Assembly (NCBI GenBank): GCA_025057935.1
Contig: JANWUW010000041.1
Span: 1-58,899, forward strand
Origin: Thermoflexales bacterium
Lineage (GTDB): Bacteria; Chloroflexota; Anaerolineae; J036; Brachytrichaceae
Direction: 5' to 3'
DNA: 58,899 nucleotides
Under the pieces are notes generated by a model. The model searched no databases, had not been told where the DNA came from, and was given only the letters and a program-made list of their open reading frames with translations. Both the position numbers and the translations under genes were made by a program. How positions within the stretch are numbered: the stretch's first letter is position 1; the number at the start of each line of letters is the position of its first letter. Below, piece after piece: positions 4,406 through 48,378 of this stretch.

Positions 4406-4834
4406 ATGTTTCTCGGCGAGTTCGCACATGCCCTAGACGACAAGCACCGCCTGACGCTGCCAGCGAAGTTTCGCGCGCGGTTGGCAGATGGCGTAGTAGT
4501 CACGGCAGGACCGGGTCCCTTCTTGCTCGTTTATCCGCTCGATGAGTTCAAAGTGCTCTTCGATAAGGTGAGCGCGCTGTCGCTGATGGACGCAGAAGCT
4601 GCTGCGATACGCCGGCTGCTGTTCTCCAGCGCTTTCGATGTCGTGCCCGATAAGCAGAATCGTGTGGTGTTGCCGCAGATGCTGCGCGAACATGCGGGCT
4701 TGACCGATGCAGCCGTGGTGGTTGGGGTAGGGCGTTTCCTCGAAGTGTGGAATCCGCAAACTTGGGAGCAAGTGCGTCAAGCAGTGCGGCAGCGCACCGC
4801 CGACCCAAGCGTTTGGGCGCGTCTGGGAGTGTGA
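4406..4834 (+). CDS. mraZ: Transcriptional regulator MraZ
   Basis: MraZ is a ring-forming DNA-binding protein of the AbrB-like fold that represses the dcw operon by binding repeats in its own promoter. The 142-residue protein starts MFLGEFAHALDDKHRLTLPA, the classic N-terminal motif with the DxKxR core, and shows the second half-domain with DKQNRVVLPQ. The ATG at 4406 is chosen because it gives the canonical N-terminus; an in-frame ATG 30 nt upstream would add residues that do not fit. No Shine-Dalgarno is obvious. The gene opens the cluster and is separated from rsmH by one base. Confidence 0.95.
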   Translation: MFLGEFAHALDDKHRLTLPAKFRARLADGVVVTAGPGPFLLVYPLDEFKVLFDKVSALSLMDAEAAAIRRLLFSSAFDVVPDKQNRVVLPQMLREHAGLTDAAVVVGVGRFLEVWNPQTWEQVRQAVRQRTADPSVWARLGV

Positions 4835-4835
4835 G

Positions 4836-5765
4836 GTGGAGACGGTGAAACACGTTCCCGTGTTGTTCGACGCGGTGATGGCGATGCTTCAGCCGCGACC
4901 AGGGGGGCGTTACTTGGATTGCACGGTGGGCAGCGGAGGGCACGCCGCGGGACTTCTGCAGCGTTGCGCGCCAGAAGGGCGCGTGCTTGCCACCGATGCT
5001 GACCCCACAGCGATTGCCCGTGTGCGCGCGCGTTTCGGCGATCATCCCTGCCTCACGCTGCGCCAGTGCTGGCTCGACGAAGTGCCAGCTCTGGTGGAGG
5101 CGTTGGGCTTTGCGCCACTCGATGGCGTTTTGATTGACCTCGGGCTCTCTTCGGATCAGCTTGAAGATGCAACGCGCGGGTTCTCCTTCCAACGCGAGGG
5201 TCCGCTTGATATGCGCTTCGACCCGACGCAGGGCATGCCGGCTTGGGCATGGCTCGATCGCGTCGATCGCGTGGTGTTGGCGCGTGTGCTGCGCGAGTAT
5301 GGCGAGGTGCCGAACGCCACGCGCGTCGCAGAGGCGATTTGGCGCGCGCGCCCTATCCGAACCACCACTCAGCTTCGCGACGCGGTGAGCGCGGTGATGC
5401 GCATGCGCAGGCGGCGCATTCACCCAGCCACCCAGGTGTTCCAGGCGCTGCGCATTGCCATCAATGATGAGCTGCGGCGCTTGCGCGAGGCGCTGCCGGC
5501 GCTCATGGCGCTGCTGGCACCGGGCGGGCGCATCGCGGTGATCGCCTTTCACTCTCTCGAGGACCGCATCGTGAAGCAGGTGTTCCGTGCGGCGACGCGG
5601 TCAGCGGCGTTCGACTACGGGGTGGCGCCGATGGCGCAGTTTCGCTTGATCACTCGAAAGCCGATCACACCTTCGCCGCAGGAGATCGCGGCGAACCCGC
5701 GCGCGCGCAGCGCGCGTCTGCGCGTGGCGGAGCGAGTGCCTGTGCTGCAGGAGGAGGCGCGGTGA
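4836..5765 (+). CDS. rsmH: 16S rRNA (cytosine-1402-N4)-methyltransferase RsmH
   Basis: RsmH (MraW) methylates N4 of C1402 in 16S rRNA using S-adenosylmethionine and is almost always encoded next to mraZ. The 309-residue product begins KHVPVLFDAVMAML and carries the SAM-binding motif DCTVGSGGHAAGLL, then VLIDLGLSSDQLED, GPLDMRFD and the C-terminal IAFHSLEDRIVKQVF. Length and motifs are complete. Translation likely starts at GTG 4836, one base after the mraZ stop, or at GTG 4845. The ftsL-like GTG overlaps its TGA. Confidence 0.95.
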   Translation: METVKHVPVLFDAVMAMLQPRPGGRYLDCTVGSGGHAAGLLQRCAPEGRVLATDADPTAIARVRARFGDHPCLTLRQCWLDEVPALVEALGFAPLDGVLIDLGLSSDQLEDATRGFSFQREGPLDMRFDPTQGMPAWAWLDRVDRVVLARVLREYGEVPNATRVAEAIWRARPIRTTTQLRDAVSAVMRMRRRRIHPATQVFQALRIAINDELRRLREALPALMALLAPGGRIAVIAFHSLEDRIVKQVFRAATRSAAFDYGVAPMAQFRLITRKPITPSPQEIAANPRARSARLRVAERVPVLQEEAR

Positions 5766-6091
5766 TAAGGACAAGCCGTTTGCGTCGTGCTGCTGCGAAG
5801 CCTATGAGCGAGCGCTTGGCTTGGGCTGCGCTCGCGCTCAGCGTGTTGCTGTTCCTCGCGCTGGCTATGACTTGGCTCTGGCTGAGCACGCGCACCGCGC
5901 ACCTCATGGACACGCTTGAGCAACTCGATCGCCGTCGCGAGATGTTGCGCGAGTCCATCAACGCGCTGTGGATCGAGATCGGCGAGCAGACAGCGCCGAA
6001 CGTGGTGGAGATGCGCGCGCGCCAGCTCGGCTTTGTGCCAGCGCGCGCCTTGGAGTACGCCGATGCCGAAAAAAGCAGCGCCCAACGCTGA
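5762..6091 (+). CDS. FtsL-like cell division protein
   Basis: This 109-residue protein has the FtsL/DivIC layout: a short basic cytoplasmic N-terminus, one membrane helix (about 22-43, LALSVLLFLALAMTWLWL), then a charged segment likely to form a coiled coil (HLMDTLEQLDRRREMLRESI) outside the membrane. FtsL-type proteins bridge FtsQ and the FtsW-FtsI synthase at the septum. Sequence conservation in the family is very low, so the call rests on topology and position between rsmH and ftsI, where ftsL normally sits. The GTG start overlaps the rsmH stop. Confidence 0.7.
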   Translation: MIRTSRLRRAAAKPMSERLAWAALALSVLLFLALAMTWLWLSTRTAHLMDTLEQLDRRREMLRESINALWIEIGEQTAPNVVEMRARQLGFVPARALEYADAEKSSAQR

Positions 6092-6097
6092 AGTGCT

Positions 6098-7795
6098 ATG
6101 ACCTCGCCGATTTCGCCTCGTCGCCTCTATTTCTCGATGGGAGTGCTTGGTGTATTGCTGCTGTTGGTCTTGGCGCAAGCAGTGCGCATTCAGATCGTCG
6201 AAGCACAACGTTTCGCGCAGCAGGCTGAGCGGCAGCAGCATGTCACGCGCTACGACATTGCTCCGCGTGGGCGCATCTTCGATAGCTATGGTACGCCGCT
6301 GGCTATCAGCCGGCGCGCCTTCAGCGTGCGTGTTGACCTCGAGCGGCGCGACCAGATCGACGCGCGCGCGCTCGCCGAGAGGCTTGCGGCTGCGACAGGC
6401 GAGTCGCCGCAGGTGCTCGAGCAGCGCATCCGTGCCATCCAAGCAAGCCCCAGCCCCACCAGCACGCTGCTGGCGTTTGCACTCACGCCGCAAGAAGCGC
6501 ACCACCTCACTGCTACCCTCGACGCGCGCCAACAGACATGGATCGTTGTCGAGCCGCACTGGTGGCGCGTTTACCCACAAGGTCAGATTGCAGCTCCCCT
6601 GCTCGGTTTTGTCGGCTTCGACCAAGATGGCTTTCTAGGCGTTGAGCATTACTACAATCGCGAGTTGAAATCGCGCGCGGGCTTGCGCTATGAGCGCAGT
6701 CGCACAGACGTTGCCGTGGTCTCGCCAACCATCGAAGGCGCCGACTTGGTGCTTACGCTCGACCTCGAACTCCAAACTTATGCTGAGAATCGCCTGCGGC
6801 GAGCACTTGAAGAGACAAACGCGCGCGCTGGCATGATCGCGGTGATGGAGGTGCGCAGCGGCGCGATCCTTGCCTCTGCCTCTGCGCCTAGCTTCGATCC
6901 GAACCTCGTCTTCTTCCGGGAGGGCAGCGAGGGCGTGCAGGATCCCTTGGTGAGCGCTGTCTATGAGCCCGGCTCAGTCCTGAAGGTGGCAACGCTGGCG
7001 GCTGCGCTTGACGCTGGTGTGGCTACCACTGCGACGGTTTACAACGACGAAGGGCGTCTTGTGGTAAGTGACTTTCGTGTTTACAACGCGAACCGCGCGC
7101 GCTACGGAGCGTTGACCCCGGAAGACATCCTCGCGGTCTCGAGTAACGTGGCTGTAGCTCAGGTGGCGCTGAGCCTTGGTGAAGAGCGCTTCGTGGCATA
7201 CATGCAGCGCTTTGGATTTGGCAGCCGCACTGGCATTGACCTCGCGCATGAATTGCCGGGCGCATTGCTCACGCCGAGCGATCCGCGCTGGCGTCGCGCT
7301 GACCTCCTTGCGAATAGCTACGGTCAAGGTATCTTGGTGACGCCGATCCAGTTGCTTAACGCCTATAACGCGCTCGCCAACGATGGCTTGCTCATGCAGC
7401 CCTACGTGGTGCGCGAATGGCGCACGGAGACTGGTGAGGTGATCATGAAACAGCCTACGCCGATCGCATACGTGGTTCGCCCCGAGACCGCGCGAACCAT
7501 ACGTCGCCTGATGGCGCGGGCGCTGCAACGCGGACATCCCGACGCGCTGCCGCCGCGTCATACAGCGGCTGGCAAGACTGGCACAGCGGAGTGGTACAAA
7601 GATGGCAAGAAGCAAGACACGACCATCGTCACATTCGTCGGTTTTGTGCCAGCGGAACAACCGCGCGTGACCATTCTGGTCAGGCTTGATGAGCCACGCA
7701 GCTCGCGCTGGGCTGGTCCAACGACAACGCCAGTCTTCCGCGATGTTGCCGCTTACGCCGCACATCGGCTTGGCATCCCGCCCGATCGACCTTGA
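6098..7795 (+). CDS. ftsI: Peptidoglycan D,D-transpeptidase FtsI (PBP3)
   Basis: FtsI crosslinks septal peptidoglycan with its partner FtsW. The 565-residue class B penicillin-binding protein has one N-terminal membrane helix (about 10-30), the pedestal motif PRGRIFDSYGTPLA and a complete transpeptidase domain. The active-site motifs are intact: Ser293-Val-Leu-Lys296 in YEPGSVLK, Ser348-Ser-Asn350, and Lys493-Thr-Gly495 in AGKTGTAEW. No PASTA domain follows. The gene lies 6 nt after the ftsL-like gene, and its stop overlaps the proposed TTG start of murF. This is the active counterpart to the defective transpeptidase at 31855-34122. Confidence 0.93.
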   Translation: MTSPISPRRLYFSMGVLGVLLLLVLAQAVRIQIVEAQRFAQQAERQQHVTRYDIAPRGRIFDSYGTPLAISRRAFSVRVDLERRDQIDARALAERLAAATGESPQVLEQRIRAIQASPSPTSTLLAFALTPQEAHHLTATLDARQQTWIVVEPHWWRVYPQGQIAAPLLGFVGFDQDGFLGVEHYYNRELKSRAGLRYERSRTDVAVVSPTIEGADLVLTLDLELQTYAENRLRRALEETNARAGMIAVMEVRSGAILASASAPSFDPNLVFFREGSEGVQDPLVSAVYEPGSVLKVATLAAALDAGVATTATVYNDEGRLVVSDFRVYNANRARYGALTPEDILAVSSNVAVAQVALSLGEERFVAYMQRFGFGSRTGIDLAHELPGALLTPSDPRWRRADLLANSYGQGILVTPIQLLNAYNALANDGLLMQPYVVREWRTETGEVIMKQPTPIAYVVRPETARTIRRLMARALQRGHPDALPPRHTAAGKTGTAEWYKDGKKQDTTIVTFVGFVPAEQPRVTILVRLDEPRSSRWAGPTTTPVFRDVAAYAAHRLGIPPDRP

Positions 7796-38622: not shown

Positions 38623-39270
38623 GTGAACGCGCAGATGAAATCCCCATCACTTCACAAACTGGGTCTTGGCAGCGGGCAGGCAGTTACGCTCTTTGAGCGC
38701 CTTTGCCCCAACTGGCTTGAAGAAGCCGCAGCTCTGCAGCCGAGCGAGTATGTGGCGCGCACGTGGCAGCGATACGAGAATGATCAGGCTGCCCATGGCT
38801 CGCAAGCAAACCAGAGCTTGAACGGAAAGTTCTTTGAGCTAACGCTAGCCACTCTACTAATTGGACGGCGCGTTCTCCCGATCTACTTAGGCGCAAAGGT
38901 CGCCTTCGTCCCGAACATCGTATACGACCTCATTCTTTACGTTGAGAGTCTCGGCCCCGTGTGCATTAGCGCGAAGACGAGTCTGCGAGAGCGGTATAAG
39001 CAGGCAGATCTTGAAGCGGTTGCGTTAAAGTTTGTCCATCGGCGTGCGCGTTACTATCTCGTCACGCTAAGCAGCGCCGAAGCTGGCTCGCTGAAGCAGA
39101 AGCTCAGCAACGGCGAGCTGCTTGGCGTAGACAAAGTGGTGCTGGCGAACCAGCCCGAGTTGAATGCGCTGGTTGAGGAGCTGGAACAAATGCGGCGCAT
39201 AGAATCGCCTCGAGTGAGCGTGATTGACAGCGCAGTTGTGGTGCGCGAAGCAGACCTGAGCGGAGCTTAG
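38623..39270 (+). CDS. Probable type II restriction endonuclease
   Basis: The call rests mainly on position directly before a DNA methyltransferase, plus a plausible PD-(D/E)xK core in the 215-residue product: Glu72 (GKFFELTLA), Asp102 (NIVYDLILYVES) and Lys118 in CISAKTSLRERYKQADLEA. The usual acidic residue before the lysine is Ser116. The KTSLRERYKQ stretch resembles endonucleases of several type II systems, but no specific family can be named and the recognition site is unknown. GTG 38623 abuts the VanW stop; ATG 38635 is an alternative start. Confidence 0.65.
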   Translation: MNAQMKSPSLHKLGLGSGQAVTLFERLCPNWLEEAAALQPSEYVARTWQRYENDQAAHGSQANQSLNGKFFELTLATLLIGRRVLPIYLGAKVAFVPNIVYDLILYVESLGPVCISAKTSLRERYKQADLEAVALKFVHRRARYYLVTLSSAEAGSLKQKLSNGELLGVDKVVLANQPELNALVEELEQMRRIESPRVSVIDSAVVVREADLSGA

Positions 39271-39275
39271 TTGGA

Positions 39276-40094
39276 ATGGCGGGCATCTTCTTCGAGTCCG
39301 AGCATGTGCGCCTAATCAATGAGGATGCGCTCACTACTCGACAGGTTGAGGCTGGCTCTGTTGATCTCATCGTCACTTCGCCGCCCTACAACGTTGACGT
39401 TCATTACAGCACCCACGATGATGACTTGAGCTATGAGGAATACCTTGAATTCAATCGCAAGTGGCTATGCCGCGCCTACGAGTGGCTGAAAGACGACGGT
39501 CGCTTGTGTCTTAATGTGCCGCTGGACAAGAACAAAGGCGGGCAGCAGAGTGTCGGTGCTGACCTGACTACACTTGCGAAACAAGTTGGCTTTCAGTATC
39601 ACGCCACGATCATCTGGAACGAGGGCAACATCTCGCGCCGAACCGCTTGGGGCTCATGGCAGAGCGCTGCTGCGCCATATGTCATTGCGCCCGTTGAGTT
39701 GATCATCGTGCTCTACAAGCGCTACTGGCGTAAGCAGCGTCGCGGAATCTCCGACATCACGCGCGATGAATTTCTCGCTTGGACAAACGGGCTGTGGACT
39801 TTCAGCGGAGAGAGCAAAAAGCGCGTAGGTCATCCTGCGCCTTTCCCACTAGAGCTGCCCAAGCGATGCATCAAGCTTTTTAGCTTTGTAGGAGACACAG
39901 TGCTCGATCCGTTTGCGGGCAGTGGCACGACCTTAATCGCTGCTGTGCTTCTGAGGCGGCGAGCGATAGGGATCGAAATTGACGCAGGCTACTGTGAGCT
40001 AGCCGTGCGTCGCCTTGCACGCGAAGCGCCGCTTCCTCTGCCAATGCATGTGAGCGACGTCGAAGAGCCACCGGAGAGTGAGGAAGTACCATGA
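39276..40094 (+). CDS. Site-specific DNA methyltransferase, probably N4-cytosine (beta class)
   Basis: The 272-residue enzyme probably protects host DNA from the adjacent endonuclease. The catalytic motif IV is TSPPYN at residues 34-39, the form typical of N4-cytosine (sometimes N6-adenine) methyltransferases. The SAM-binding motif DPFAGSGTTLIAA lies near the C-terminus; this IV-before-I order defines the beta class. The central part (RRTAWGSWQSAAAPYVIAP) is the likely target-recognition region. ATG 39276 lies 5 nt after the endonuclease stop. Its own stop overlaps the argH start (ATGA), so the restriction pair is embedded in a housekeeping transcript. Confidence 0.88.
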   Translation: MAGIFFESEHVRLINEDALTTRQVEAGSVDLIVTSPPYNVDVHYSTHDDDLSYEEYLEFNRKWLCRAYEWLKDDGRLCLNVPLDKNKGGQQSVGADLTTLAKQVGFQYHATIIWNEGNISRRTAWGSWQSAAAPYVIAPVELIIVLYKRYWRKQRRGISDITRDEFLAWTNGLWTFSGESKKRVGHPAPFPLELPKRCIKLFSFVGDTVLDPFAGSGTTLIAAVLLRRRAIGIEIDAGYCELAVRRLAREAPLPLPMHVSDVEEPPESEEVP

Positions 40095-42702: not shown

Positions 42703-43239
42703 CTAGGCGGCTGTCGAGTTGCGCGCTCGGCGTTCGCGCCAGAGGTTAACGATGATCAACGCGAGCGTGCCGACCACAATGCAGCTATCGGCAATGTTGA
42801 ACACGGGCCAATCGAAACCGATCTCGGGGATTTGGAAGTGGATGAAGTCCGTCACGTAGCCTTGGCGCAGCCGATCCACTAAGTTGCCGAGCGCCCCGCC
42901 AAGCTGTAACCCAAGCGCGATCCGCGAAAACCAATCGTTCGTCGGCAGGCGCGGCGCATAGTAAACAATGACGGCGGCAACGACCACGGCGATCACAACG
43001 AACAAAGCACCGCCGTTCGGGAACAAACTGAAGGCAGCTCCCGTGTTCTGCACATGTGTCCAGCTCAGGTAGTGACCAATGAAGGGGATGGATTCGTAGA
43101 GCGCGAGATTTGCCTCGACGATGCGCTTTGTGGTCTGATCAGCAAGCAGCGCAACAAGCGCGATCCCGAGCAGCAGCGCATATCGTTGTGCAAATGCCGC
43201 AAGCCAAGCCCGAGAGGCAAGATCAAGCGTGCGATTCAT
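42703..43239 (-). CDS. lspA: Lipoprotein signal peptidase LspA
   Basis: LspA removes signal peptides from diacylated prolipoproteins in the membrane. The 178-residue, four-helix protein has all family motifs: DQTTK (Asp34, Lys38), the NTGAAFSLF loop (65-73), and the two catalytic aspartates Asp122 in GNLVDRL and Asp151 in VFNIADSCIVVG. Its ATG shares a base with the TGA of the preceding NTPase-LspA-like fusion (TGATG), so the two are translationally coupled. An ileS-lspA neighbourhood is common in bacteria. The PCuAC lipoprotein in this window is one likely substrate. Confidence 0.96.
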   Translation of the reverse strand: MNRTLDLASRAWLAAFAQRYALLLGIALVALLADQTTKRIVEANLALYESIPFIGHYLSWTHVQNTGAAFSLFPNGGALFVVIAVVVAAVIVYYAPRLPTNDWFSRIALGLQLGGALGNLVDRLRQGYVTDFIHFQIPEIGFDWPVFNIADSCIVVGTLALIIVNLWRERRARNSTAA

Positions 43240-44933
43240 CAGCGCGACCAGTGGGGCGAGCGGCGCACAAATGAGGCACCCGCCAAGATGACTGCGCCGA
43301 GCGCAATTAGCACATGCGCTGGGCTGAAGAGGGGCATGTTTGGCAGGCGCACTATGTTCATGGGCGCGCCGAAGGTGAGGTGGTCAGCGAGCAGCGCGCC
43401 GAAACCGCCGAGCAGCAGCGCGTATGCGAGCCGCGCGTAGAGGTTGCGGCGATGCGCGTCGAAGACGATTATCAGCAGCGTGCACAATGCTATCCCTGTC
43501 AACGCGGCGGTCAGGCTGAGCAAGTTGGTAGTGAGATCAGGGGGCGACCAAGTAGGCGCACTGAAAGGGCTATCGAGCGGGATGCTGCTGGAGAGCGCGA
43601 CGGCTTTGATCGCGCGGTCTATCCCAAATCCCAGCGCTGCTAGGAAGGAGAGCGCGGCAATTTCTGCAAGAGCGGAGGATTTCAGCTGCTCAGCGGGGCG
43701 AGCATTAGCTTGCGGCGTCTGGGTGGTTGGAAGCGGCTCTTCTGCGGATGCGGGGCGAATTAACTCGCTGCTGCCGGAGACGGCTTGCATTGCGGAGCGC
43801 AGCGCGCGCTCGTTCAGCGTGAGAAACGCTGCTGCCGAGGGTGAGGCAAACAGCGCTTTGGCGCGCGGGTGGTTCAACACCATGCGCGTCCACTCGTTGG
43901 GCGCTGGCGCAGTCGCAGCGCTGCGCACATGGCGCTCGATCTGTGTGAGCAGGGTAGGTTGGCGCAGTGCGGCTTCGAACAGCGGTGGCAGCATCTCGCG
44001 CAGGGCGCACAGCCGCGCTACATGGACGGCAGAGATGGGCACATCGCGCCCCTCTGCTGCAAGGGTGCTCAGCACGCGCATTGCTGCGCGCCAACGAATG
44101 GCGGCGCGCGCCACCGCTTCGTGGTCAGGTTGCAGAGCCTCGAGAAGCACGCGCGCGCAGTGCTCGGGCAGGTCGCGCAGGGAGGGTGGAGCAGAGTGAG
44201 CGCTGGCGCTGTCTACCGAGTGCGCTGGTTGGGGAGCAGGTTGCGGCTGCGCAGCGTCGCTGAAGGTTCCCTCTTCCAACGCGATGCGCGCAATTGCCCA
44301 GCCGAGCAGCATCTCGCGCAGCGTAGCCGGCAGTCGCGTTTCATCCACCGGGAAGATCACCACGCAGCGCGGTGCGTTCAGGAAGTATTGCGCCGCTTCA
44401 AGCAGCTCCTTGGCGTCTTCTGGGTCGGCTTTGTCGAGGTGGTCAATGACGAGCGCGAGCACGCTTTCAGAGAGATTCTCCAGCAGAGAGCCGAAGGTAG
44501 CGCGGAAATGATGCACGAACGCCGCGAGCGCGAAATCGGCGGCTGGGTCGTCGCGCTGCTGAAGGCGTAGCACGTCGTCGAATTGCTGCCGCAGCGTGTC
44601 GAGCGAGGGGAGGGCGCGGCTGCGCCGGCGGATAACGTCGAGCACGACGTAGATGAGGTGTTGCCAAGGGCGCAGGCTAGCGGGCAAAGCTGCAGCGTCT
44701 ACGATCGCGCTGAGCACAAAGTGCCCTTGCGGAGTGCGCAACGAGGCTTGGGCGCTGCGCTGTGCTAGGTCGCGGACAAGTGCGCTTTTGCCGACCTGCT
44801 TGCCTGCCAACACCACTGCGCCGCTGATGCTAGGGCGGTCGAGCAGCGCAAGCAGCGAGGCTATGGCTTGCGCAGGCGCGCGTTTGAGCGTGAGAGCGGC
44901 GACCGTGCTCGTGCTCGAAGGGGTTAGAGTCAT
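43239..44933 (-). CDS. KAP-like P-loop NTPase fused to an LspA-like membrane domain
   Basis: The 564-residue protein is of unknown function. Residues ~10-250 look like a KAP-type P-loop NTPase: Walker A AGKQVGKSA, Walker B LALVIDHLDKADPED, and RCVVIFPVDETRLP. A linker and helical region follow (to ~415). Residues 420-560 form four membrane helices that align with LspA: GIDRAIKAVAL matches the DxxxK motif (Asp439, Lys443); ARLAYALLLGGFGALLADHL matches RIALGLQLGGALGNLVDRL, with Asp517 aligned to the first catalytic Asp; and PLFSPAHVLIALGAVIL matches PVFNIADSCIVVGTLAL, but the second catalytic Asp is His540. The NTGAAF loop is missing. It is probably a non-peptidase membrane partner, located between ileS and true lspA. 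A ribosome site, AGGAGAGG, precedes the ATG. Confidence 0.7.
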   Translation of the reverse strand: MTLTPSSTSTVAALTLKRAPAQAIASLLALLDRPSISGAVVLAGKQVGKSALVRDLAQRSAQASLRTPQGHFVLSAIVDAAALPASLRPWQHLIYVVLDVIRRRSRALPSLDTLRQQFDDVLRLQQRDDPAADFALAAFVHHFRATFGSLLENLSESVLALVIDHLDKADPEDAKELLEAAQYFLNAPRCVVIFPVDETRLPATLREMLLGWAIARIALEEGTFSDAAQPQPAPQPAHSVDSASAHSAPPSLRDLPEHCARVLLEALQPDHEAVARAAIRWRAAMRVLSTLAAEGRDVPISAVHVARLCALREMLPPLFEAALRQPTLLTQIERHVRSAATAPAPNEWTRMVLNHPRAKALFASPSAAAFLTLNERALRSAMQAVSGSSELIRPASAEEPLPTTQTPQANARPAEQLKSSALAEIAALSFLAALGFGIDRAIKAVALSSSIPLDSPFSAPTWSPPDLTTNLLSLTAALTGIALCTLLIIVFDAHRRNLYARLAYALLLGGFGALLADHLTFGAPMNIVRLPNMPLFSPAHVLIALGAVILAGASFVRRSPHWSR

Positions 44934-44955: not shown

Positions 44956-47900
44956 TCATACTTTACGAATGCCTATTGTGAGCGTCTCACCGTCGAAGGA
45001 ATCAGTGTCGATGTGAGTGCCTTCTGGTTCTCCTTCGCGCAGCGCGATGCTGAGCGTCTCGTTGCGCACGAACTCTGAGAAGGCGGCGATCGCTGCGGCG
45101 AGCCGCGGCGTCGCCTTGTAAGTCGTCGTGATGCGGTCGGAGACGTTGAGGTTTGCCGCCTTGCGCAGGTCGTTGATGCGCCGTATCACTTCGCGCGCAA
45201 GCCCTTCCTGGATCAGCGTTTCAGTGAGCGTGGTGTCCAAGCCGACCACGATCCCGTCTTCACCAGCTACGATCAGCCCCTCGCGCGGCACGGGTTGCAC
45301 AATCACCTCATCGGGCAGCAGCTCCACCCCGTCCACTTGGAGCGGCTGCCCAGCGCGGACTGCGCTGACCACGCGGTCGGTGGGCATGTGCGCCAGCGCC
45401 TCGCGCACACGCGGGAAGTCGGCGCCTAGCTTTTTGCCCAGCTTGCGTGCGTCGGCTGCGACGCGATAGGTCACCAGTTCTGACTCTTGATCAGCGAATT
45501 CGATGCTCTTCACGTTAAGCTCGTCTTCGATCAGCGCGCGCTGAGAGAGCACTGCGCGCCGCACTTCATCGTTGGCGACAATGGTGATCTTGCTTAGCGG
45601 CTGACGCACCTTCACTTTGGATTGGGCGCGCGTGTTATGCCCGAGCGCAACCACCGTGCGCACCAGCGCCATTTCGCGCAGCAGCGCGCGCGCTTCTTCG
45701 TCGAGCGGACGCGCTTCGGGGTAGGGTTGGTGATGCACTGAGAACGCGTCGCCGTTATCCTGCGCAGCCTCCACGCTGACGCCGTTGATGAGGTTCTGCC
45801 ACATCACCTCGCTCAGGAATGGCACGATGGGCGCGATCAAGCGCGCTAGGTTGGTGAGCACAGTGTAGAGCGTGGCGTAAGCCGCTTGCTTGTCGTCAGT
45901 CATCACGCTGCCCCAGAAGCGCTCGCGCGAGCGGCGCACGTACCAGTTCGACAGATCTTCGATGAAGGACTCGATCGCGAGCACCGCGGGGCGTGCGTCG
46001 AACGCGCTAAGGCGCTCGTCAACGGTGTTGATCGTCTCAGCGAGGCGGGCAAGGATCCAGCGGTCCAGCGTGGAAAGCGCGAAGCGCTGCGCTAGCGACC
46101 AAGCCGCATCATGCGCCTTGAGCGAGGCATCAGGCGTCCAGCCGTCGGCGTTGGCGTAGGTGACGAAGAAAGCGTAAACGTTCCACAGCGGCAGGATCAC
46201 TTGGCGGCGCACTTCGTTGAGCGCGTTGTAGCCGAAGAGCAGGTTGTCCTCGTAACGCTGGCGCGCGTAGAGCCAGCGCATCACGTCGGCGCCAGCTCTG
46301 TCGGCTGCCTCGTTGAACTCGATGGCGTTGCCCTTGCTCTTATGCATCGGCTCGCCCTTCTCGTCGAGCAGCGTGGCGTAGCCGAGAATAGTGCGGGTGG
46401 GCATTTTGCCCTCCAGCACCGTGCTCATCGCGATCAGCGAGTAGAACCAATTGCGGAATTGACCAGGGAAGCTTTCGGTGATGAAGTCCGCGGGGAACCA
46501 GCGTTCCCAGTAAGCGCGGTCGGTGCGGTAGCGCAGTGTGGAGTAAGCCACGATGCCTGCGTCGAGCCACGGGTTGCCCACATCGGGCACGCGGCGCCCA
46601 ATCAGACCAGTGACGGGATGGCGAATTTTCACGTGGTCAATGTAGGGGCGGTGAGGCGTATGACCTTCGAACTGTTCCCAGCCTTCCACAGCGCGCGCTT
46701 TCAGCTCCTCGAAGCTGCCGATCACCTCGAAGGTGCCGTCGGGATATTCCCATATCGGCAGCGCCAAGCCCCAGTAGCGCTTCTTGCTGATCATCCAGTC
46801 GCGCATGTTGCGCAGCCAGTCCAGCTCGCGCTCCTTGCCGAAGGCGGGGATCCAGTTGATCTGCTTCGCCACCTCCATCATGTAGTAGCGCAGCTCGTCC
46901 ATGCTGATATACCACTCGTCTACCATGCGGTAGACCAGCGGTGTGCCGCAACGCCAACAGTGCGGGTAGCGGTGCAGGTACTTGTCGCGGCGGTAGAAGT
47001 AGCCCTTTGCTTTGAGCAGCGACTCGACAAGGTCGGGCACTTCATGGGCATGCTTGCCGCTGAGCGGCCCGAAGCTGTCGAGGAAGTAGCCGTCCTCGTT
47101 CAGCGGCGCGATCTTGGGCATGCTGTGCTGCTTGCCGAGCTGGTAGTCCTCTGGACCAGCCCCAGGAGCGTTGTGCACGATGCCGGTTCCTTCCTCCTCG
47201 CTCACTTCGTCCCACACGATCACGGGGTGCTCGAAGGGGCGACCGTCGTGCAGGTCCTCCCAGCGCTTGATGGCGTCGATCACAGCAGGGAGGTCATCGA
47301 ACAGCCCCTCGTAAGTCCAGCCTGCCATGTGCGCGCCGAGGATCTCGCCGAGCACTTCGTATTCGCCGCGCAGCATGTGGAGCGTCTTTGCGCCGAGGAA
47401 GTACACCGCGACTTCGCCGTCCTTGTGGACTTGGCGCACGATGGCGTAGCGCAACTTGGGGCCGACCGCAGCCATGACGTTAACTGGCAGCGTCCAAGGC
47501 GTGGTCGTCCAAGCGAGAAGGAACTTGCCATGGGCGCGTTCAAACTTTTCGCGCGCGCCATCGCTTACCCACTCCGCATGGCTCACATCGTATCGGCGCA
47601 GCTTCATGCGCACTGTGAGCGCGGGGTCTTCGCGATCTTTGTAGCCCTCAGTGTCGATCTCGTGCTGGCTGATGCCAGTGGCGCAGCGGGGGCACCAGGG
47701 GATGACATCCTCGCCACGGTAAATCCAGCCGCGCTCGTGGCACTTCTTTAGAAAAGCCCAGATCTGATAGTTGTTTTCGTCGCTGAAGGTGAAGTAGGAA
47801 CGCCCAAGCTCGGGCGTGCCAAGCATTCCCACAATTTGCTCCACGGTGCCGGTGATCGTGCGTCCATTGCGCTGAATGGTGATCACCTGCTGTGGGTCTT

Positions 47901-48378
47901 CGACGATCTTCTGGGCAAGCCAGCGCAGCTCATCGGGGTCATCCCAGTCCATCCAGTAGCCGAGGCGAATGGATTGCTCGGTCTGCATGGCGGCGCTGTT
48001 GAGCACACGCTGCTTGCACAGCCGGATAAAGCGCTCCACGCCGAAGGCTTCGATGTCACGCTTGCTCTTGAAGCCTATGTCTTTCTCGACGTTGACCTCC
48101 ACCCAAAGCCCTTGGCAGTCGAAGCCGTTCTGCCAGCGCTGGTTGTACCCCTTCATGGCGAAGAAGCGCTGCCACAAGTCTTTGTAAGTGCGCCCCCAGG
48201 CATGATGCACGCCCATGGGGTTGTTCGCAGTGATGGGGCCGTCGATGAACGAGAACTGCTTGGCGGCGTTGGCGCGGAGCTGACGTAGGCGCTCAAAGGC
48301 GCGTGTGCGCTTCCAAAACGCAAGCACTTGCCGCTCTTGGGCGGGGAAATCAGTTTGGCTGGATACAGGTTGGAACAT
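44956..48378 (-). CDS. ileS: Isoleucyl-tRNA synthetase, type 2
   Basis: IleRS charges tRNA-Ile. The 1140-residue product is a full-length class I synthetase with editing (CP1) domain, anticodon-binding domain and C-terminal extension. It is of the eukaryote-like type 2. The HIGH signature is rearranged: NPMGVHHAWGR has Gly56-Val-His58-His59, the swapped GxHH form. The second signature is HKSK (679-682) in EPMHKSKGN. Type 2 enzymes are insensitive to mupirocin, and the swapped motif is linked to very high resistance. It heads a minus-strand operon with the NTPase fusion (22 nt away), lspA and a glycosyltransferase. No T-box leader is visible upstream. Confidence 0.95.
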   Translation of the reverse strand: MFQPVSSQTDFPAQERQVLAFWKRTRAFERLRQLRANAAKQFSFIDGPITANNPMGVHHAWGRTYKDLWQRFFAMKGYNQRWQNGFDCQGLWVEVNVEKDIGFKSKRDIEAFGVERFIRLCKQRVLNSAAMQTEQSIRLGYWMDWDDPDELRWLAQKIVEDPQQVITIQRNGRTITGTVEQIVGMLGTPELGRSYFTFSDENNYQIWAFLKKCHERGWIYRGEDVIPWCPRCATGISQHEIDTEGYKDREDPALTVRMKLRRYDVSHAEWVSDGAREKFERAHGKFLLAWTTTPWTLPVNVMAAVGPKLRYAIVRQVHKDGEVAVYFLGAKTLHMLRGEYEVLGEILGAHMAGWTYEGLFDDLPAVIDAIKRWEDLHDGRPFEHPVIVWDEVSEEEGTGIVHNAPGAGPEDYQLGKQHSMPKIAPLNEDGYFLDSFGPLSGKHAHEVPDLVESLLKAKGYFYRRDKYLHRYPHCWRCGTPLVYRMVDEWYISMDELRYYMMEVAKQINWIPAFGKERELDWLRNMRDWMISKKRYWGLALPIWEYPDGTFEVIGSFEELKARAVEGWEQFEGHTPHRPYIDHVKIRHPVTGLIGRRVPDVGNPWLDAGIVAYSTLRYRTDRAYWERWFPADFITESFPGQFRNWFYSLIAMSTVLEGKMPTRTILGYATLLDEKGEPMHKSKGNAIEFNEAADRAGADVMRWLYARQRYEDNLLFGYNALNEVRRQVILPLWNVYAFFVTYANADGWTPDASLKAHDAAWSLAQRFALSTLDRWILARLAETINTVDERLSAFDARPAVLAIESFIEDLSNWYVRRSRERFWGSVMTDDKQAAYATLYTVLTNLARLIAPIVPFLSEVMWQNLINGVSVEAAQDNGDAFSVHHQPYPEARPLDEEARALLREMALVRTVVALGHNTRAQSKVKVRQPLSKITIVANDEVRRAVLSQRALIEDELNVKSIEFADQESELVTYRVAADARKLGKKLGADFPRVREALAHMPTDRVVSAVRAGQPLQVDGVELLPDEVIVQPVPREGLIVAGEDGIVVGLDTTLTETLIQEGLAREVIRRINDLRKAANLNVSDRITTTYKATPRLAAAIAAFSEFVRNETLSIALREGEPEGTHIDTDSFDGETLTIGIRKV

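Follow-up and report, generated by a model that had tools for sequence, protein, structure and literature searches.

LspA is known to act as a stand-alone enzyme and to be a drug target. Members of the KAP family commonly, although not universally, have transmembrane segments within their NTPase domain. The catalytic pair of P. aeruginosa LspA is D124/D143, and both termini of LspA are cytoplasmic (PMC8048626). In S. aureus LspA the pair is D118/D136, either D118N or D136N on its own abolishes activity, and 14 residues have been listed as highly conserved (PMC6952399). Among the publications we searched, which included few subscription papers, none connected LspA with a pseudoenzyme or with the KAP family, and we found no described system combining an NTPase with a dead LspA, in agreement with the preliminary description of the DNA analyzed here. 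As far as we found, there is also no bacterial description of lipoprotein maturation being controlled by a pseudo-signal-peptidase receptor. The window (the whole stretch of DNA that was analyzed, 58,899 nt from a Thermoflexales bacterium) contains a gene of exactly this NTPase plus dead-LspA architecture (Table 1).

An NTPase of KAP/AAA type joined to an LspA homologue

The reading frame and the TGATG overlap with intact lspA given in the preliminary description were confirmed, as was its reading of the product as a KAP-like NTPase joined to an LspA-derived membrane domain. The fusion of a KAP/AAA-type NTPase with a true LspA homologue is real. The neighboring 178-aa LspA showed every expected motif (PF01252, 4e-40) and was the sole PF01252 match in the source genome. 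Outside the window, the same genome held three matches to the Lgt family. Two of these were strong; the third, at 28.7 bits, was very divergent and may be a further degenerate enzyme in the lipoprotein pathway.

Table 1. Coordinates of the fusion gene, its parts and the surrounding features
Feature	Position	Strand	Remarks
KAP-type NTPase / pseudo-LspA fusion gene	43239..44933	(-)	564 aa, ATG start; P0001
NTPase domain, AAA/KAP type, aa ~17-224	44262..44885	(-)	Pfam and predicted fold
Degenerate Walker A, aa 43-50 AGKQVGKS	44784..44807	(-)	One residue shorter than family motif GPxGSGKT
Walker B, aa 160-167 ALVIDHLD	44433..44456	(-)	At least 90% conservation of D164 and D167
Helical middle region, aa ~250-395	43749..44186	(-)	Absent from genera g2 and g4
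Pseudo-LspA domain, aa ~415-558, four transmembrane helices	43260..43691	(-)	Profile, hhalign, predicted structure
Asp517, corresponding to Asp109 of S. aureus LspA, outside the catalytic pair	43383..43385	(-)	25/25
Asn526, at the catalytic Asp118 (S. aureus)/Asp124 (P. aeruginosa) site	43356..43358	(-)	Asn 21/25
His540, at the catalytic Asp136/Asp143 site	43314..43316	(-)	His 25/25
TGATG, fusion stop overlapping lspA start	43237..43241	(-)	
Intact lspA, 178 aa	42703..43239	(-)	Catalytic Asp131 and Asp151 present
ileS	44956..48378	(-)	22 bp upstream of fusion gene
Lgt-family matches L133-L135	G000:C56:30937-31719, C92:30990-31781, C107:6627-7310		

The C-terminal 150 aa of the window protein matched PF01252 with an E-value of 5.1e-4 and 20.7 bits, so that the window sequence alone falls under the Pfam cut-off of 25 bits. 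Taken individually, however, 24 of 25 C-terminal domains of the family matched PF01252 (E<1, best 5.1e-15). A profile of the 25 domains found the three distinct LspA sequences in the PDB at 1.5e-14 to 4.6e-14, while no non-LspA entry among 177,635 PDB sequences fell below E 0.5, and hhalign of the fusion C-terminal family against the family's true LspA gave 98.4% (E 5e-15). The relationship of residues ~420–560 to LspA that had been read from the window sequence, for which homology is weak when it is taken alone, is therefore strong for the family.

Structure prediction gave the same result. AF2 modeled the full-length protein with a pLDDT of 83.9 and the C-terminal domain alone with 87.7; the pTM of the full-length model (0.45) is too low to fix the arrangement of the domains. 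Overlaid on solved LspA structures, the model showed the same four-transmembrane-helix fold, with Z 14.0–14.7 and an rmsd of 2.5–3.7 over 128–145 residues. The C-terminal domain alone matched 5dir/6ryp at VIA Z 14.7, with the next unrelated fold at Z 6.2, and its model contained no strand of at least three residues. A chance or compositional resemblance can be discarded, since LspA was the only match to the profile below E 0.5 in the PDB and scored far above unrelated helical bundles in structure. Neither of the two outcomes that the preliminary description named as refuting, a deviating helix topology or a profile search that misses LspA, was observed.

The NTPase-type N-terminus was likewise borne out. 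The N-terminal half of the window protein matched AAA_16 (7.3e-9) and KAP_NTPase (3e-6, 27.1 bits against a cut-off of 20), and the KAP profile was matched by all 25 family members at E<1. Its predicted fold resembles RdrA, ORC/Cdc6, BrxC and TnsC. The proposed Walker B was found, and the proposed Walker A, AGKQVGKSA, is degenerate. Strongly hydrophobic helices were confined to residues 420–559, leaving the NTPase domain free of inserted transmembrane segments of the KAP kind. The top-scoring relative of the NTPase half outside the family (E 9.3e-30) was a KAP-type NTPase at 4578–6656 (+) of L082, joined, as judged by eye, to an FGE-sulfatase-like C-terminus.

The P-loop is not kept throughout the family. 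It was lost in eight relatives and is canonical in others, the window copy being the one that is a residue short. The region reads GKSVDKAA in a sister genome (L032), and the P-loop lysine is gone in all five g7 genomes as well as in L040 and L053. On the IleS tree these losses need at least four changes, so ATP turnover cannot be essential. Since the helical middle region is absent in g2 and g4, the constant core consists of the NTPase fold and the pseudo-LspA domain. Both halves gave dN/dS values of 0.13–0.46, a measure that is unreliable for pairs with saturated synonymous sites, with 0.15 for the NTPase half in a pair lacking the P-loop. The protein is thus under purifying selection, NTPase half included, despite the P-loop losses. 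A decaying pseudogene is ruled out, as the frames are open, dN/dS stays below 0.5 and some residues are invariant.

Loss of the catalytic pair and conservation around it

In the alignment with P. aeruginosa LspA (chain 9emz numbering), NLlDR of the query fell on N112-L-Y-D115-R116 and vlny on V122-V-D124-F. Transferred from S. aureus LspA, D118 corresponds to N526, D136 to H540 and D109 to D517. Asp517, which had been taken for the first catalytic aspartate, is therefore ruled out in this role by the alignment numbering: it aligns with the aspartate of NLxDR (Asp109 in S. aureus, Asp115 in P. aeruginosa), and the first catalytic site is Asn526. The change of the second catalytic aspartate to His540 and the absence of the NTGAAF loop were both correct. 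The label of a catalytically altered domain consequently holds, the domain being inactive to judge by its sequence, except that both catalytic aspartates are lost and not one. Among the 14 highly conserved LspA residues, the window protein retains six (D439, K443, G510, D517, F536 and A539), and N106, R110, V116, D118, N133 and D136 are altered. N52 and G54 are absent together with their loop, the NTGAAF motif (Asn52/Gly54) and beta-cradle segment being replaced by a variable-length loop without motif.

Across 25 homologues in which the average column was 45% identical, H540, D517 and D439 were identical in all. Position 526 was Asn in 21 and His, Asp, Thr or Ala in one each; L043 has Asp at the first catalytic site and His at the second. 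The catalytic pair is thus lost in every homologue, yet the site is not drifting freely, and signal peptidase II activity of the fusion is predicted to be absent given the missing pair. The invariant Asp439, Asp517 and His540 occupy positions that surround the active site in LspA. The fixed Asp-to-His exchange could mean that the old pocket has acquired a new catalytic or metal site, made up of the invariant Asp517 and His540 together with Asp439 and Lys443. We consider this very improbable: Asn526 is not fixed, and we know of no LspA-fold enzyme of this kind.

Distribution, gene order and origin

The fusion was present in 27 of the 28 genomes of a single Chloroflexota family from hot springs and mats, the relatives of Ca. 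Roseilinea (window genome included); carriers are labeled Candidatus Roseilinea, Thermoflexales or other Anaerolineae/Chloroflexi MAGs. Because the same fusion occurs in 27 genomes from different projects, an assembly artifact is ruled out. No fusion was seen in the other sampled genomes of the class and phylum, where a single partial match outside the family covered the NTPase only. Beyond the phylum, a pattern-based scan of genome contigs returned this group alone, and neither plasmids nor PHROGs gave a match. The fusion has been inherited vertically across this one family, and its retention throughout points to a useful "dead protease".

Directly upstream of the fusion lies ileS in all 27 genomes. 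Downstream, lspA follows directly in all 22 checkable genomes outside genus g2, with an overlap of 1–8 bp or a gap of up to 95 bp. In g2, lspA is found on other contigs and the fusion still follows ileS, so it does not need the neighbor. The coupling to real LspA proposed in the preliminary description is accordingly seen in gene order only; lspA lies elsewhere in g2, and in a mirror-tree comparison the fusion and LspA co-varied weakly once their shared ancestry was taken into account (partial r 0.23, permutation p 0.04). The two genes ileS and lspA often adjoin in other families too, with other genes or none between them. One g2 genome carries a divergent lspA (L122, G010 C47) that scored 45.7 bits against the family LspA profile, compared with ~220–324 for the others; this low score suggests replacement of lspA by transfer. 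Elsewhere in the window, between a VanW-like gene and argH, a likely restriction-modification pair was observed at 38623–40094 (+): the first protein gave a sub-threshold match to BsaWI endonuclease (1.8e-4), and the next is an N6/N4 DNA methylase (1.5e-46).

This setting bears on whether the protein might serve as a sensor in defense or conflict, pairing a KAP/STAND-like NTPase with an effector in the membrane, akin to QatA, PifA or RdrA systems. The NTPase half does match QatA and PifA weakly and resembles RdrA and BrxC in structure. Such a role does not fit a vertically inherited gene that nearly every member genome carries at a single position within a housekeeping operon, however; the adjoining genes are ileS and lspA, with no Qat or RADAR partners, the P-loop was repeatedly lost and no plasmid match was found. 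A defense function therefore seems improbable.

The dead domain had been explained as a duplicate of the neighboring lspA, an origin that our trees did not uphold. All dead domains grouped in a single clade (100/99) that excludes the LspA of the family itself, and a tree uniting the two was rejected (AU p 0.006). This placement, which is moderately, not fully, secure given the long branches, disfavors descent from the adjacent lspA. Furthermore, the fusion profile scored the LspA of other families at 54–73 bits, mostly above the 40–54 bits of the family's own. Tandem duplication of lspA, a question independent of function, is thus an unlikely origin, even though the two genes adjoin and tandem lspA pairs exist in other families of the class. 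In those pairs (L079, 852–1964; L080, 3947–5049) both copies kept the catalytic motifs by eye, and one L080 copy reads NKGAAF.

A possible non-cleaving receptor and its known relatives

We tentatively favor, at somewhat less than even probability, a reading of the fusion as a family-specific membrane protein of the ileS-lspA operon that combines a receptor or chaperone, holding LspA-type ligands without cleaving them, with an NTPase-derived scaffold or switch. Within the membrane, the pseudo-LspA domain would bind, but not cut, a lipid or a lipidated signal peptide, and this binding would be passed on to the cytoplasmic KAP/AAA domain, acting as an assembly scaffold or nucleotide switch, probably in lipoprotein maturation or its quality control. 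The N-in/C-in topology of LspA, together with the positively charged loop after helix 2 (HRRNLYAR) and tail (VRRSPHWSR), which would lie on the cytoplasmic side, would place the NTPase half in the cytoplasm. This receptor reading is supported by the LspA homology in sequence and predicted fold and by the loss of both catalytic residues, either of which inactivates S. aureus LspA when singly changed from D to N (PMC6952399). Also consistent with it are the three invariant residues, the retention and gene order in the family, and the purifying selection on both halves through at least four P-loop losses. Against it stand the persistence of the fusion in g2 with lspA elsewhere, divergent in one genome, the weak co-variation, and the chance that the gene order is plain inheritance of an ileS-lspA arrangement present in other families. 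LspA grips its substrate partly through the beta-cradle, which is lost here, so ligand binding in the former manner is not assured. The more specific version, a dead-LspA pocket rebuilt around the invariant His and Asp residues that senses lipidated signal peptides or lipids and reports to the scaffold, is possible but on balance unlikely.

A membrane anchor or sensor role for the LspA-derived domain, as first suggested, is plausible. As the main rival to a receptor, the bundle may be a passive anchor that does no more than tether an NTPase-type scaffold to the membrane, its operon position being functionally meaningless. The C-terminal domain indeed evolves fast relative to lspA, the fusion was retained where lspA has moved away, and the ileS-lspA order is ancestral. 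An anchor need not, however, conserve His where a catalytic residue used to be in all 25 homologues, along with Asp439 and Asp517, and we rate this explanation as rather unlikely.

A conserved dead LspA joined to an NTPase would be a first hint that the handling of lipoprotein signal peptides is regulated or monitored in some bacteria. The fusion also gives access to a naturally non-cleaving LspA fold in which binding by the pocket can be studied, and it is an instance of a fusion whose two enzyme halves both lost catalytic motifs while selection retained the protein.

With KAP NTPases (PF07693; QatA, PifA) the fusion shares the Pfam match and a Walker B of the form hhhhDxxD. Unlike in that family, its membrane helices form a separate C-terminal LspA-like domain, its P-loop is atypical in the window copy and lost in several genera, and its gene sits in a housekeeping operon. 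In structure, the NTPase half is matched best by RdrA of RADAR and by ORC/Cdc6-type AAA+ proteins (Z 12–13.7, rmsd ~4), with a sequence identity of 8–17%; unlike in RADAR, no RdrB partner adjoins the gene. LspA itself (Peptidase_A8, PF01252; 5dir, 6ryo/6ryp) has in common with the C-terminus the four-helix membrane fold, DxxxK in helix 1, an NLxDR-like motif and an FNxA motif. It differs in its catalytic Asp pair, replaced by Asn526/His540 in the fusion, in its NTGAAF/beta-cradle segment, which the fusion lacks, and in not being joined to a predicted cytoplasmic NTPase. As a working analogy only, iRhom rhomboid pseudoproteases are inactive relatives of membrane proteases that recognize transmembrane clients (PMC7618786); they have an unrelated fold, are eukaryotic and carry no NTPase domain. 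Monitoring by a dead LspA in some bacteria would somewhat parallel what iRhoms do with their transmembrane clients.
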